The notes below the pieces were generated by a model. It saw nothing but the letters and a program-made list of their open reading frames with translations, was not told the DNA's origin and ran no database searches. From Salipiger profundus (GTDB taxonomy: Bacteria > Pseudomonadota > Alphaproteobacteria > Rhodobacterales > Rhodobacteraceae): a stretch of DNA of 64,000 bases. Shown here in pieces: positions 2,148 through 8,130 of the stretch. Each line of letters opens with the position of its first letter. Within the stretch, counting starts at the first letter, position 1. The position numbers and the translations under genes are program-made. The stretch spans positions 62,001-126,000 of the forward strand of contig NZ_CP014802.1 of the NCBI RefSeq assembly GCF_001969385.1. Reading direction: 5' to 3'.

Positions 2148-2380
2148 CACGATCCGCCTCAGCCTGCCGTCTGTACAGATATCCTGAAAACAGCTCCGAA
2201 AATCGGAGGAAATCTCGGCCGCCTATGATCCTCCTCCCAACAAGGATACACGCATGATCCTGCCCCAGCTGGCTGGAGGAAAATGCCAGCTCTGTTGATG
2301 GCATGGATGCCCCCTCCCGACGGCATCACAATGTGCCAAGGTGATGTTTGCTGAAGACATCACAGAAGGAGAGAGCATCC

Positions 2381-2638
2381 ATGTCCGAAGTTACCATCAT
2401 CGGGATCGATCTTGCAAAGCGCGTATTTCATCTGCACGGCGCGCGCGTCGATGGATCCGTCGTATTCCGTAAAAAGGTTTCGCGAGCTCAGTTGCTTGCG
2501 TTCTTCACCCAACACCCGAGATGCATTGTTGCTATGGAAGCCTGCGCCACGGCGCACGGTTGGGGCCGTGAATTTGAGAAACTCGGTCATGACGTGCGAT
2601 TGATCGCACCGATCTATGTGAAACCGTTCGTGAAGTAA
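2381..2638 (+). pseudogene. IS110-family transposase, 5' part, interrupted by the RIT element
   Basis: The ATG has a good ribosome site (GAAGGAGAG). The 85 residues IIGIDLAKRVFHLHGA...VAMEACATAHGWGRE...YVKPFVK form the N-terminal DEDD (RuvC-like) half of an IS110 transposase; the first catalytic Asp is in GIDLAK and the Glu is in MEAC. The reading frame stops immediately after YVKPFVK, at the edge of inserted DNA. The missing continuation, RQKNDAADAEAI, resumes at 6491. Joining both parts gives about 345 codons, normal for the family. The gene has therefore been split by one insertion and not lost by decay. Confidence 0.9.
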
Positions 2639-2661
2639 TGATCACCTCTCCATTACTTCAC
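2630..2661. repeat. Inverted repeat at the left RIT/IS110 junction
   Basis: GTGAAGTAATG (2630-2640) and CATTACTTCAC (2651-2661) are a perfect 11-bp inverted repeat separated by 10 bp. The left arm begins in the IS110 target codons (GTG AAG) and the right arm overlaps the first bases of the RIT terminal repeat. There is no counterpart at the right junction. Confidence 0.75.
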
Positions 2662-2690
2662 TTATCATCAGGTGGCCGTAATGCGGAGGA
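2660..2690 (+). repeat. RIT left terminal inverted repeat (with subterminal inverted arm at 2744-2755)
   Basis: Thirty-one bases starting ACTTATCATCAGG and ending TAATGCGGAGGA are identical to the reverse complement of 6456-6486. A second, inverted copy of the inner segment (CTCCGCATTATT) sits at 2744-2755, so each RIT end holds a pair of facing arms, as expected for tyrosine recombinase binding sites. Confidence 0.9.
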
Positions 2691-2800
2691 CTGTGGGACA
2701 GGCGCATGAATTCCCCGCATTTCCGCGCCAATCGACGGCTTTGCTCCGCATTATTTTCGGCCGAACCTCTGCGGTTGTTTGACCAGCGGAGGAGCCAGCG

Positions 2801-4033
2801 ATGACAAAAGCCGATCGCCAAGTAATCACCGAACTCGAAACCGTACTGACCAGCCAAGGATACAGCCCGGTGGTGGTCAGGAATTACTGCGCCTACGCGC
2901 GCGGCTTTCTTGACCATCTTGCGCAGCGGAACATCCCGGTCGCAGATGTAACCGAAGCCCAAGTGGAGCAATACCTGCGCGAAGCGGTCGCGCTGTTCCA
3001 GCGCCGTCACGGCCGCCTTCCTGGTCCGCGCTGGCACCAAATTCCCTGCGCGGGTATTCACGCGCTGCTGCGGCTTGTGCAGGGCCGATGGCCACCGGCT
3101 ACAAATGCGGCCTGTGCGGCCGACGCGTTGCGATTTGCGATCTGTAACGAGTACGAGGCCTGGCTTCTCGATGAGCGTGGCCTTGCCCGGCCCAGCATCC
3201 ATGCGCTCCTGTGGGAAGCCCGACACTTCCTGGCCTGGCACCTCGAACGATGCGGTGCCGAAGGTCTGATGGATCTAAGTATCGACGACACCGACCGCTA
3301 TATGGACCTGCGTGCATTGAAGCTGACGCGCAGCTCGCTGAAATCTGTTGCGGAGCGGCTTCGTTCGCTGCTGCGTCACCTCTATAGGGCGGGCCACATT
3401 GCGACCGACCTGTCGCCGCACATCATCGCGCCGTTGCTCTACGCCTATGAAGGTGTACCCTCGATCCTGGAACGGGACCAGATCGCCGCGGTACTGGAAA
3501 GCGCGAGGGCGGACAGGACACCGGCGGGGCTGCGGGACTACGCAATCTTGCAACTCCTTGCAACCTATGGGCTGCGGTCTGGAGAAATCCGCAATCTGCG
3601 GATTGAGGACATCGACTGGCGGAGCGAAACCATCCGTGTCCGTCACAGCAAAACGGGAGCCTGCTCGTTCCTGCCCCTGATGGTGCCTGCGGGCGAGGCC
3701 GTTCTCACCTATCTGCGTTCCGGACGGCCAGCGACCGCTGCCAGGGAAGTCTTCATCCGCACGCGCGCGCCCTATCGCAAGCTCGAGAAGCTATACAGTC
3801 TGGTTCGACGGCGGCTCTGCGATGCCGGCATCAAGCCGCCAGGCAAATGCGGGCCGCATATCTTCCGCCATGCGCGTGCGGTCGAGATGCTGCGCACGTC
3901 AGTTCCGCAAAAAGTCATCGGCGACCTTTTGGGGCATCGCTCAACCGCGTCGACGGCCCCCTACCTCAAGCTTGCCACCGAGGATCTCAGGGCCATTGCG
4001 CTTGATGTGCCGGGTGCGGAGGGGCTGGCATGA
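2801..4033 (+). CDS. ritA: RIT tyrosine recombinase A
   Basis: A 410-residue phage-integrase-family protein, first gene of the RIT operon. An N-terminal SAM-like core-binding domain (about 5-200) precedes the catalytic domain. Catalytic residues are visible: Arg I in YGLRSGEIRNL (about 258), the H-x-x-R box HIFRHARAVEM (about 352), GHRS and the nucleophile Tyr in APYLKLA (about 387). The start ATG follows GGAGGAGCC. The stop overlaps the next recombinase start by 4 bp (ATGA), so translation is probably coupled. The three proteins are thought to act together in moving the element; which one cuts which end is unknown. Confidence 0.9.
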   Translation: MTKADRQVITELETVLTSQGYSPVVVRNYCAYARGFLDHLAQRNIPVADVTEAQVEQYLREAVALFQRRHGRLPGPRWHQIPCAGIHALLRLVQGRWPPATNAACAADALRFAICNEYEAWLLDERGLARPSIHALLWEARHFLAWHLERCGAEGLMDLSIDDTDRYMDLRALKLTRSSLKSVAERLRSLLRHLYRAGHIATDLSPHIIAPLLYAYEGVPSILERDQIAAVLESARADRTPAGLRDYAILQLLATYGLRSGEIRNLRIEDIDWRSETIRVRHSKTGACSFLPLMVPAGEAVLTYLRSGRPATAAREVFIRTRAPYRKLEKLYSLVRRRLCDAGIKPPGKCGPHIFRHARAVEMLRTSVPQKVIGDLLGHRSTASTAPYLKLATEDLRAIALDVPGAEGLA

Positions 4034-5400
4034 CCGCTCGCTGGCCCGATCCCGATCGCACGATCATTGACCACCATCTCACCGGCCTTGGTCTGCGCAG
4101 CATGAAAAGTCGAACCTGCTACCGGCAGGTCTTGCACGGCTTCCAGGACGTCGCCGAGCATCACAGCGAACTTGGTCAGGATGTGCTGGTCGCGTGGCTG
4201 CGGGTATCGGCTGAATGCTGGGCAGCGACTACGCTGCTGCACCGCACCCGCATCGTTGACAGGTTCCTCGATCACCTTCTGATTACCGAGGCGATCGAGC
4301 GCAATCCCGTCACCACCCTGCGCGAAGCATGCAGTATCAAGCAGTGCATGCCAGTCTGGCGCGCTCTGGCATCGCACGATCCGGAAAAGGCCCTTGCCGA
4401 GTTGCGTCGGCCCCGGCCGTTCGGCAGCGTGCTGGGAGAGGTTTTGGCTGAGCACGTCGCGCTGATGCGGAACCGGGGGTACAAATACACTTCGCAGTCT
4501 GCCCGGTTGTTGAGATTTGACCAGTTCCTGCAGCTGAACCCGGCGCTCCAGGAGCAGCCGGTCGGGGTGATGCTCACACACTGGGCGGCGGCGAAATCCA
4601 CGCGCAATCACGCCGTCGAATGTGAAAATCTCAGGCGCACCCTGACGAAAATCTTCCGTCACCGGGACCCATCGATCCCATCACGCAGGCCGGACCCGCG
4701 ACCGCAGAAGGACGTGGTCAAGCAATGGCGCAAGCCCCACATCTACTCGCCTGCCGATATACGACGGATGCTCGACGTCGCTCGTTCCTTCCCCTCACCA
4801 CGGTCACCACTTCGCCCGCTGACGATCTACACCATGCTGGTGCTGGCCTATTGTGCAGGCTTGCGGCGGGGCGAGCTTGCCCGTCTCGATCTTGGCGACA
4901 TCAATCTCCAGAGCGGTACGATCACGGTTCGCCAAACGAAGTTCTTCAAAACCAGGATCCTGCCGCTGCCCGCCAGCGTGGTGGTCGAGCTTCGAGCCTA
5001 TATCAAAGCCCGGCGCCGTGCCGGCGCATCGCAGGATCCATGTGCCGGTCTGTTCTGGCACGAGCAGGGCCGCACCCGCCGCTACACGCCGGAAATGATC
5101 ACCTGGCTGCTCACTAACGTCACACGGCGCGCCGGGTTCAAGCCACTGCAAGGGCGAACCGGGCCGCGCGTTCACGATCTGCGCCACTCGATGGTCGTGA
5201 ACCGCATCTTGGAATGGTACAAAGCGGGCATCAATCCGCAGGACCGGCTGCCGTTCCTCGCGACTTACCTCGGGCATCGGGATATCAATTCCACCCTGGT
5301 CTACATCACCGTCACGCAGGATCTTCTGCATCACGCCAGCGAACGGTTCAGAGCCGTGGGAGCACCATGCCTCGACCTTGGGCAGGGGGTGAGGTCATGA
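4030..5400 (+). CDS. ritB: RIT tyrosine recombinase B
   Basis: A 456-residue tyrosine recombinase, the largest of the three. Conserved catalytic positions are present: AGLRRGELARLD (Arg I, about 278), HDLRHSMVVNR (His-x-x-Arg, about 380-384), LGHRDINSTLVYITV (GH and Tyr, about 415-425). The N-terminal part is a divergent core-binding region. It overlaps ritA and ritC by 4 bp at each end, giving a tightly coupled three-gene operon. All active-site residues appear intact. Confidence 0.9.
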   Translation: MTARWPDPDRTIIDHHLTGLGLRSMKSRTCYRQVLHGFQDVAEHHSELGQDVLVAWLRVSAECWAATTLLHRTRIVDRFLDHLLITEAIERNPVTTLREACSIKQCMPVWRALASHDPEKALAELRRPRPFGSVLGEVLAEHVALMRNRGYKYTSQSARLLRFDQFLQLNPALQEQPVGVMLTHWAAAKSTRNHAVECENLRRTLTKIFRHRDPSIPSRRPDPRPQKDVVKQWRKPHIYSPADIRRMLDVARSFPSPRSPLRPLTIYTMLVLAYCAGLRRGELARLDLGDINLQSGTITVRQTKFFKTRILPLPASVVVELRAYIKARRRAGASQDPCAGLFWHEQGRTRRYTPEMITWLLTNVTRRAGFKPLQGRTGPRVHDLRHSMVVNRILEWYKAGINPQDRLPFLATYLGHRDINSTLVYITVTQDLLHHASERFRAVGAPCLDLGQGVRS

Positions 5401-6401
5401 ACAAGGCGAACCCGTTCCCGAACCTGATGCGCGCGTTCTTCTATGAGTGGCTTGTTGAGCAGCGGAACGCCTCCGTCCATACGGTCCGATCCTACCGCGA
5501 CACCTGGCGGCTGTTCCTGCGGTTCACTGCGCAGCGCACCAAAAAGACGGTTGCGATGATCACGCTGGCCGATCTGACTGCCCGCGACGTTGCTGCGTTC
5601 CTGAGGCACACTGAACAGGAGCGCGGCGGCACAATCGGCACGCGCAACTGCCGGCTTGCCGCGATCCGCAGCTTCTTCAACTTCGTGGCGACCAGAGATC
5701 CAGCATCGGTCGCTCAATGCGCGGAAATCCTCAACATCCCGGTCAAGCGAGCACCGGTATCGGAACCCTGTTATCTGGAACCGGCGGAAGTGGCAGCGAT
5801 CCTTGCCCAGCCAGACCGCTCGACCCTCGAAGGCATGCGCGATCACACGCTGCTCTCGTTCCTTTACAACAGCGGCGCACGAATACAGGAAGCGCTCGAC
5901 CTGTGCCCCGATATGATCCGGTTCGAGAGCCCAAGTTGCGTGCGGCTGACAGGCAAGGGCCGCAAGGAACGCATCTGTCCGCTCTGGCCAGAAACCGTGC
6001 TGCTGTTGAAAACGCTATTGGAACGAAAACCGCGAGCACCGGACCAGCGGCTGTTCGTGAACCGCTATGGTGAGCCGCTCAGTGCCTCGGGCGTCCGGTT
6101 CAAGCTTGCGGGCTATGTGAAAGCGGCGGCCGGAACCGAGCCATTGCTGCACACCAAACATGTGACGCCGCACAGCTTCCGCCACGCCACCGCCGTGCAT
6201 CTTGTCTCGGCCGGTGTCGACGTCACGGTCATCCGCAGCTGGCTTGGCCACGTGAGCCTCGACACCACCAACCATTACGCGAAGGCGAACCTGGAAACGA
6301 AACGAAAGGCACTGGACCAAGTCAGCCTGCCGGCAACGACAGTTCAACCGCCGTCATGGAAACGGGATGCGAGCCTGCTCGCCTGGCTCGACACGCTCTG
6401 A
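5397..6401 (+). CDS. ritC: RIT tyrosine recombinase C
   Basis: A 334-residue XerC/D-like tyrosine recombinase, third gene of the RIT operon. The ATG in GAGGTCATGA overlaps the ritB stop by 4 bp; the frame is open further upstream but that part lies inside ritB. Core-binding domain residues are about 8-100 (FFYEWLVEQRNASVHTVRSY). Catalytic motifs are SGARIQEALDL (Arg, about 161), HSFRHATAVHL (about 258-262) and LGHVSLDTTNHYAKA (Tyr, about 293). The gene ends 54 bp before the right terminal repeat; the subterminal arm 6402-6415 begins directly at its stop codon. Confidence 0.9.
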   Translation: MNKANPFPNLMRAFFYEWLVEQRNASVHTVRSYRDTWRLFLRFTAQRTKKTVAMITLADLTARDVAAFLRHTEQERGGTIGTRNCRLAAIRSFFNFVATRDPASVAQCAEILNIPVKRAPVSEPCYLEPAEVAAILAQPDRSTLEGMRDHTLLSFLYNSGARIQEALDLCPDMIRFESPSCVRLTGKGRKERICPLWPETVLLLKTLLERKPRAPDQRLFVNRYGEPLSASGVRFKLAGYVKAAAGTEPLLHTKHVTPHSFRHATAVHLVSAGVDVTVIRSWLGHVSLDTTNHYAKANLETKRKALDQVSLPATTVQPPSWKRDASLLAWLDTL

Positions 6402-6455
6402 AATAATGCGGAGGAATGTGGGCGAAAACGCCGGCAACCAGCAAGTCTGCGCAGG

Positions 6456-6486
6456 TTCCTCCGCATTACGGCCACCTGATGATAAG
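6456..6486 (-). repeat. RIT right terminal inverted repeat (with subterminal inverted arm at 6402-6415)
   Basis: This 31-bp segment is the exact reverse complement of 2660-2690. The inner arm AATAATGCGGAGGA at 6402-6415 faces it, mirroring the left end. IS110 coding sequence resumes 1-2 bases beyond this repeat (AAG CGC CAG AAG AAT). Confidence 0.9.
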
Positions 6487-6487
6487 T

Positions 6488-7265
6488 TAAGCGCCAGAAG
6501 AATGATGCGGCCGATGCCGAGGCGATTGTGGAGGCGGCGTTACGCCCGACCATGCGGTTTGTTGCTGTGAAGACGGAAGATCAGCAGGCGCGCGCGATGC
6601 TGTTCCGGACACGGCAGATCTTTGTCGGCCAACGCACTCAGATGATCAACGCCTTGCGTGGGCACTTAGCGGAGCACGGGCTGGTGGCGGCACGAGGTCC
6701 GGCTCATGTCAAGCGCCTCGCAGACGCGCTCGCCGATGAAGATACAGCGCTGCCTGACGGCGTTCGCGATCTTGGCCAGATTTATCTGGACCAAATTGAC
6801 GGCCTAACTGCGCGGATCGCAGACCTTGACGCAAAGATGAAGCGCGCCGCTAAAGACGCCGATCTGGCCCGCCGCGCGCAAACTATGCCGGGCGTGGGGC
6901 CGGTCACTGCGCTGGCGATCGAAACCTTCGCGCCAGATATGGCCAGCTTCCGACGTGGGCGTGATTTTGCGGCCTGGCTCGGCCTCGTGCCGAAACAGCA
7001 CTCTACAGGCGGGAAAGCCCGGCTGGGGAAGACCTCGAAGATGGGGCAGCGCGACATTCGCACGCTTCTCGTGTCTGGAGCCATGGCCGTTCTTCAGGCC
7101 GTCGAACGATTTGACACCCCGAATAATGGTTGGCTGAAGCGCCTGCTGACCCGCAAGCCGCGCATGGTCGCTGCGATCGCACTGGCGAACAAGATGGCGC
7201 GTGGCCTTTGGGCCATGATGACGAAACAGGAGGATTACCGAAATCCGGTGGCGGCAATGGTCTAA
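6488..7265 (+). pseudogene. IS110-family transposase, 3' part (after RIT insertion)
   Basis: Continuation of the gene that begins at 2381. It starts KRQKNDAADAEAI, the conserved motif with the last acidic residues of the DEDD domain, and continues through a coiled-coil spacer into the C-terminal transposase_20 domain: MPGVGPVTALAIETF (helix-hairpin-helix), FRRGRDFAAWLGLVPKQ, and STGGKARLGKTSKMGQ with the Ser region typical of IS110 enzymes. The frame is undamaged to its stop. An internal ATG at 6528 could start a fragment lacking the catalytic N-terminus, but no ribosome site supports this. Excision of the RIT element could restore the gene if the junction were resealed precisely. Confidence 0.88.
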
Positions 7266-7585: not shown

Positions 7586-8130
7586 TTATTCCACAGCTTC
7601 CGTGACAGGGATGCCGAGCGCGGTGTAGCCGTTCAGGAGGGCGATGCGGACCTGGATTTCCGCGACCTGGCGGTCGAAGTCCCCTGCTATGAGCCTCTGG
7701 TCCAGCAGTTTCACGCAATGCATTTTGGTCTCGACACGGCTCCTGCGGTGATATCCGCTCCATCGTCGCCAGAGCGCGCGGCCGAGGTATTTGGCAGCGC
7801 GCAGGGCCTCGTTTCGGGCCATGGCTCCGGTGGTGGCGGCTTTCCACGGCTTGGCATTTTTGCGAGGCGGGATGACGGCATGTGCGCCACGGTCGGCAAT
7901 GGTGTCGTGGCATTTGCGTGTGTCATAGGCCCCGTCGGCGGTGACGCTGCCGATCTGCTCGTCCGCCGGGATCTGGCCGAGCAGGTCGGGCAGCACCGAT
8001 GTGGCTGCCAGTAACCTCGACCGCACGAACCTCCAATGTCTGCTCGTCTACCCCGAGGTGGATCTTGCGCCAGATCCGTCGCTTGCCGGGCCCTCGCTCA
8101 AAAGCCGAGATGAATTGGACCATTCGCGAG
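7586..8130 (-). pseudogene. IS5-family transposase remnant, N-terminally truncated and frameshifted
   Basis: The minus strand encodes GKRRIWRKIHLGVDEQTLEVRAVEVTGSHIG in one frame, then LPDLLGQIPADEQIGSVTADGAYDTRKC...VIPPRKNAKPWK...RSRVETKMHCVKLLDQRL in another. Together they form the central and C-terminal DDE domain of an IS5-family transposase (Asp in ADGAYD, Glu in RSRVETK). The frame change lies near 8005, where a short deletion fuses SHIG to the LPDLL segment. The N-terminal third is absent. The gene cannot give a functional transposase. Confidence 0.85.

Follow-up and report, generated by a model that had tools for sequence, protein, structure and literature searches.

A RIT element inside an IS110 transposase gene of Salipiger profundus, and a target motif shared with related RIT elements

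Members of the Tn554 family carry several recombinases, use a specific site inside radC and exchange a hexanucleotide at their junctions; their third protein, TnpC, is not a tyrosine recombinase. RIT elements are described as three overlapping tyrosine recombinase genes with ATGA overlaps, found in identical multiple copies (PMC3414803, PMC2864759) and bounded by inverted repeats of about 28-34 bp (PMC3414803, PMC2864759; the 34 bp from PMC10214605). Insertion sites reported for them are IS66 tnpA, radC (in two species) and the gene of a Tn6049-like transposase, and the 2012 paper of the pair describes ends that vary and a mobility still to be demonstrated (PMC3414803, PMC2864759). GInt islands enter a coding gene site-specifically via a circle, with a 6-nt staggered exchange and heteroduplex (PMC5385486). 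Here, we describe a RIT element that interrupts an IS110 transposase gene in a 64,000-nucleotide stretch of the Salipiger profundus genome (contig NZ_CP014802.1, positions 62,001 to 126,000; hereafter the window). The case in the window is one instance of a wider rule: the RIT elements have a fixed target and a fixed polarity relative to the target gene, lie in both orientations, carry a spacer on the 5' side of the target, and have empty counterparts. For IS110, integration takes place in the codons for Y-x-x-x-[F/Y]-V-K and R-Q-K-N-D, with the cut between the two.

In the window, the IS110 transposase is cut between VKPFVK (end 2635) and RQKNDAAD (start 6492), exactly where the original prediction had placed the split. 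This site encodes the catalytic D-x-x-D motif of IS110 transposases. The C-half matches PF02371, PF01548 positions 89-152 fall to the right of the insert, an intact relative has both domains, and the 85-aa N-half on its own gave no Pfam match. The locus is made up as follows.

2289..2635, + strand: left part of the IS110 (type B), from the left end of the insertion sequence to the insertion point
2381..2635, + strand: N-half of the IS110 transposase, 85 codons ending YVKPFVK, junction at residue 85
2615..2629, + strand: target 5' arm TATGTGAAACCGTTC, motif common to five target families
2630..2635, + strand: 6-bp exchange segment GTGAAG, the last 6 bp before the spacer
2636..2655, + strand: 20-bp spacer module TAATGATCACCTCTCCATTA, 5' with respect to the target gene, separating the IS110 N-half from the left repeat
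2656..2690, + strand: left terminal repeat, with the inner 6-bp segment CTTCAC (2656-2661), then the module TTATCATCAGGTGGCCGTAA (2662-2681)
2801..4033, + strand: ritA, tyrosine recombinase, 410 aa, PF00589 E 2.8e-24
4030..5400, + strand: ritB, overlapping ritA by ATGA, tyrosine recombinase of 456 aa, PF00589 E 5.7e-16
5397..6401, + strand: ritC, overlapping ritB by ATGA, tyrosine recombinase of 334 aa, PF00589 E 2.8e-29
6457..6491, + strand: right terminal repeat, ending in the 6-bp segment GTTAAG (6486-6491)
6492..7265, + strand: C-half of the IS110 transposase, beginning RQKNDAAD, PF02371
6492..7543, + strand: right part of the IS110 (type B), from the insertion point to the right end of the insertion sequence

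The left end of the IS110 was placed where the two type-B copies cease to be identical, at 347 nt, and the right end, which is approximate, likewise at 1,052 nt. The three recombinase genes lie on the same strand, chained by ATGA overlaps at 4030 and 5397, and all three proteins match PF00589 above its cut-off, bearing out the predicted trio of complete overlapping genes; their NCBIfam matches were below cut-off only and mostly Xer-type. The ritC start was set at the in-frame ATG at 5397, which is common to 10 aligned relatives (the open reading frame listing gives a longer start at 5214). The terminal repeat arms are 35 nt long and 97% identical, with one mismatch, and contain the predicted perfect 31 bp (2660-2690 and 6457-6487, by reading). 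The prediction had also taken these repeats as the limits of the element, and this part did not stand, because the spacer at 2636-2655 recurs exactly at 13 of the 14 copies in the genome and so belongs to the element. The element thus measures 3,836 bp between the repeat ends and 3,856 bp with the spacer, slightly above the published size of about 3.5 kb. With three adjacent same-strand recombinases, short overlaps, inverted repeats of the 28-34 bp class and a matching size, it is confirmed as a complete and recent RIT element nested in IS110, as had been proposed. A DDE (PF01609) transposase fragment (7589-8026, - strand) lies directly to the right of the interrupted IS110, and a diverged but similar sequence borders the second type-B copy too.

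Fourteen full RIT copies are present in the S. profundus genome (5.42 Mb, nine contigs), gathered by their RIT sequence and independently of IS110. Between the end 6-mers, 13 copies, including that of the window, are identical to each other, and the remaining one (L015) has one extra base. Thirteen are flanked by IS110 N- and C-halves at a single codon boundary, in four IS110 types, A to D, of which the other three are 44-60% identical in protein to the type of the window; at the exception, L018, one flank is a C-half and the other carries 12 bp of a C-half. Nine copies share the orientation of the IS110 gene, four are opposite and one has the C-C arrangement. Type A is the commonest and occurs with both RIT orientations, as does the type of the window, B, whose two copies are opposite to one another; C and D are further types. 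The exact spacer occurs 13 times in the genome, each time at a RIT copy, L018 being without it. The right-end 6-mer of the window copy is GTTAAG, versus GTGAAG at 12 copies in other IS110 types. Beyond the 12 bp of C-half, L018 (6837-9847, C1) passes into what by eye appears to be a different mobile element, which carries a transposase or integrase gene of its own.

Insertion into a transposase should do the host little harm, and the concentration in IS110 could therefore reflect ascertainment, with wide insertion that is merely tolerated there. We regard this as very improbable: the 14 copies were collected by their own sequence and all lie at one codon boundary, the same position is used with single-base precision in divergent IS110 genes, and other targets are specific to other clades. 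The IS110 N-domain model found 19 matches in the genome, comprising 14 interrupted and five intact genes. In a motif scan, [YH]-x3-[FYW]-[VI]-[KR]-x2-K-x-D was absent from the five intact genes and present in four of four intact control relatives, and none of the N-domain matches was an intact type-A IS110. Every motif-bearing IS110 gene found in this genome is thus disrupted, which makes the element a parasite of a parasite. Two short IS110 fragments are also present (C1:2147978 and C8:103015).

The type-A IS110 parts are identical in eight N-sides and nine C-sides, at different genomic places and with the same insertion sequence ends. This is what would be seen if RIT had entered IS110 on one or a few occasions and an IS110::RIT composite, with RIT as its passenger, had then been spread by IS110 transposase supplied in trans. 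As an account of the whole pattern we think this unlikely, given that at least four IS110 types have been used, that types A and B each hold both orientations, that the genome yielded no intact type-A copy, and that the identical boundary is used in many other taxa. Nevertheless, identical IS110::RIT units stand at several places and the two may therefore sometimes have spread together, so that a possibility which the original prediction had set against itself, a larger element including IS110, is partly alive. Dating IS110 against RIT by single-nucleotide polymorphisms was ruled out, as both are identical among copies.

Uninterrupted type-A IS110 was found in two congeners, where L218, L219 and L235 are identical to the two flanks over 337/337 and 1036/1036 bp with the halves directly adjoining, as the original prediction had anticipated; L234 is a further empty site, contiguous and with one mismatch. 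One of these two congeners (G004) also carries RIT elements at strawberry-notch genes, yet all four type-A IS110 copies taken from it are intact. For type B, the nearest intact relatives found are 75-80% identical in DNA over the C-half (72-85% in protein), and those examined (L285, L286 and L287) are joined at the place where the window gene is split. A survey of 394 genomes sampled from the larger family, with two candidate places scored per genome, gave long RIT matches in G000, G028 and G339, in the last two with adjoining IS110 halves. It also gave a relic in G112 (L304, 10103-10414) with an IS110 N-half, spacer and left RIT end and no recombinase match. Compared with one another, the filled and empty sites suggest that the element is mobile. 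The G112 relic sits beside a second broken IS110.

We scored 95 external loci for target-gene halves meeting the element. Sixteen were plasmid loci, hand-picked for variety among 60 listed of 83 records, some of them for an annotated IS110; the other 79 were genome loci from the best 80 of 144 confirmed stretches. Some loci share a record or place (for example L076 and L099), so that the counts are not independent. Targets were assigned at 68 loci, with IS110 at 29, ArdC at 20, a strawberry-notch helicase at 14, IS66 at three and an unnamed gene, X5, at two. The ArdC, helicase and IS66 names come from Pfam or NCBIfam; X5 (L153 and L154) gave no Pfam match. Outside this genome, the IS110 insertions with both halves divide evenly, nine in the orientation of the gene and nine opposite. 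In L153 and L154, from Sphingobium, the RIT element lies within the unnamed gene at a junction following YANGW, and in L107 and L146 the RIT elements have grown by 2-3 kb inserts within or at the start of ritB. At L077 (after 6258) and L128 (near 10743), the CTTGAC/CTTCAC segment of the RIT end is joined without a gap to a sequence that begins with T[TA]GGACTAACCCGCTCC. Genes for an integrase and an IS91-family transposase come next in L077, and this gene pair also follows the RIT element of L310.

Target choice follows the recombinase tree. In a tree of RitA, RitB and RitC with 49 labelled rows, the IS110 users form one group (100/99) and the helicase users another (100/100), and the target labels need three changes, the minimum. 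The tree leaves out 23 of the 95 loci, whose genes are incomplete or broken. The IS110 label needs five changes when unlabelled rows are counted as a group and one without them; in the tree with unlabelled rows, L080 and L082 took their ArdC label from a neighbouring intact ArdC gene, and by eye their junction looks like a second ArdC piece.

Common to the five target families is a 5' arm that ends right at the 6-bp segment, [TC]A[TC]-N9-T-N2, which was present in 36 of 37 IS110, 15 of 15 ArdC, 9 of 10 helicase, 3 of 3 IS66 and 1 of 1 X5 junctions (near-copies included). With equal family weights, the arm holds 13.55 bits over 18 columns, whereas 5,000 codon-phase registers drawn at random from the same genes average 5.98 bits (sd 1.07) and reach 11.25 at most. 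Only arms preceded by 300 nt of sequence entered this test (48 distinct arms out of 66); among these, IS66 is represented by two and X5 by one. For IS110, ArdC and helicase alone the value is 15.21 bits, against a maximum of 12.42 in 4,000 registers. The 3' arm is more weakly shared (11.59 bits; four of 4,000 codon-phase registers reached as high).

The junctions have a regular build. Across the external loci and the 14 own copies, the spacer pattern stands at a fixed offset in 66 of 66 scored N (5'-side) junctions (0 for IS110, helicase, IS66 and X5; 3 nt past the query boundary for ArdC), and at the C junctions the repeat end lies just before the exchanged 6-mer in 68 of 68. The spacer agrees with the adjacent terminal module at a mean of 13.5 of 20 positions (9-16, 39 distinct pairs), compared to 5.7 +/- 1.9 when shuffled. 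In 18 external IS110 insertions with both halves, the N-side and C-side 6-mers agree and differ from the inner one in six, only the N-side and inner ones agree in five, all differ in four, only the inner and C-side ones agree in two, and all are equal in one. A rule for which junction keeps the 6-mer of the target was dropped, as these insertions split over five patterns.

We consider it probable that the window holds an autonomous and recently active RIT element of an IS110-site subfamily, which moves as a double-core circle and keeps its spacer 5' of the target. The joint of the putative circle would run from the right repeat through 6 bp, the 20-bp spacer and a further 6 bp to the left repeat. 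The spacer may be a third, diverged copy of the 20-bp terminal module; given this resemblance, the joint would read module-6-module-6-module and contain two recombination cores (about 10-6-10 bp) that are inverted relative to each other. One of them would pair with the target (5' arm, 6 bp, 3' arm) and strands would be swapped across the 6 bp, leaving the spacer on the 5' side. The 6-bp segments would be exchanged with those of the target, identity not being required. The choice between the two cores would yield the two orientations, and if the inner core later recombined with the 3' junction, the element would be inverted in place. A joint of this kind would account for both orientations, for the fixed side of the spacer and for the variable 6-mers. 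The orientations might instead come only from inversion after integration, without use of either circle core: the inner core that is kept stands inverted to the 3' junction, inversion would give the observed structure, and types A and B are present in both orientations. Nothing specific speaks against this, both routes giving the same sequence; we find it rather doubtful as the sole route.

Several observations weigh against the double-core circle and a general target rule. The 5'-arm motif is absent from two of the 66 scored junctions and from two distant RIT elements, L312 and L314, the two that were readable. Twenty-seven of the 95 external loci are without an assigned target; 19 of them are contigs of less than 3.9 kb that end at the element (the other eight are L080, L082, L102, L125, L135, L143, L145 and L155). 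At 18 of the 68 C junctions the terminal repeat, too, fits the spacer pattern, so that the absence of a 3'-side spacer is read from the repeat end directly preceding the 6-mer; such matches are expected if the spacer copies the terminal module. As the type-A copies are identical, the independent insertions in this genome number only at least four by insertion sequence type (A to D), a number that is exceeded if the orientations in A and B are separate events. Lastly, L013 and L016 join halves of different IS110 types, L085, L096 and L110 have N-RIT-N arrangements with two spacers, and L018, L087 and L159 have C-RIT-C arrangements without a spacer; the flanks of L307 are also C-RIT-C. Recombination between copies, or other rearrangement, therefore also happens, and homologous recombination between oppositely oriented copies would be expected to produce both the N-RIT-N and the C-RIT-C forms.

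Nine distant RIT elements (L307-L315) were hand-picked from 60 listed of 558 records, and targets were named in three: IS21 for L307 and L314 and IS66 for L312 (L308-L311, L313 and L315 are without a call). L307 (2757-6625) and L314 (3182-6572) lie inside IS21 transposase genes, at VPDNLK and just before QVDYG, sites that presumably are catalytic motifs. In L312 and L314 a palindromic spacer of 20 bp was seen, lying 5' with respect to the target. Tentatively, and with slightly more doubt than conviction, we speculate that RIT elements are recombinase-only parasites that home by a DNA motif onto conserved coding motifs of mobile genes (the catalytic motifs of IS110 and IS21, IS66, ArdC and the strawberry-notch helicase), in either orientation via a double-core joint, with the spacer as a third recombinase-binding module and with flipping in place. 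The movement of RIT elements is poorly known, and this genome and its relatives supply exact ends, a third module, 6-bp segments, empty sites and a target rule; transposition is therefore testable by a two-plasmid assay. A recombinase family that shifts between gene families while keeping a common site motif may also serve targeted integration.

The Tn554 family resembles the RIT element of the window in its multiple recombinases, its site within a gene and its 6-mer exchange, and differs in that TnpC is no tyrosine recombinase. Another known circle-forming system likewise has a joint with two motifs around a 6-bp spacer and leaves a 6-bp mark at the junction; its spacer is taken from element-adjacent sequence, whereas RIT keeps a 20-bp module flanked by two 6-bp segments. 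GInt islands share the coding-gene site reached via a circle, the 6-nt exchange and the swapping of att halves with the target; in contrast, they need four gin genes and have att repeats of 10-11 nt, and no 20-bp spacer module is described in the available parts of the report (PMC5385486). The fourth conserved gene that follows the recombinases in GInt/SE is absent here, with only 55 bp between the ritC stop (6401) and the right repeat (6457). Closest are the described RIT elements, which have the same trio with ATGA overlaps, inverted repeats, identical copies and disruption of transposase genes; transposase targets as such are not new, because the IS66 tnpA and Tn6049-like insertions had already been reported. 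The accessible parts of those reports give no target rule, IS110 target or spacer module (PMC3414803, PMC2864759), and neither a target rule nor IS110 as a RIT target is stated in the RIT literature searched, which comprised open papers. Set beside these open papers, three features look new: the subfamily specific to IS110, the spacer module and the target motif that the families have in common.

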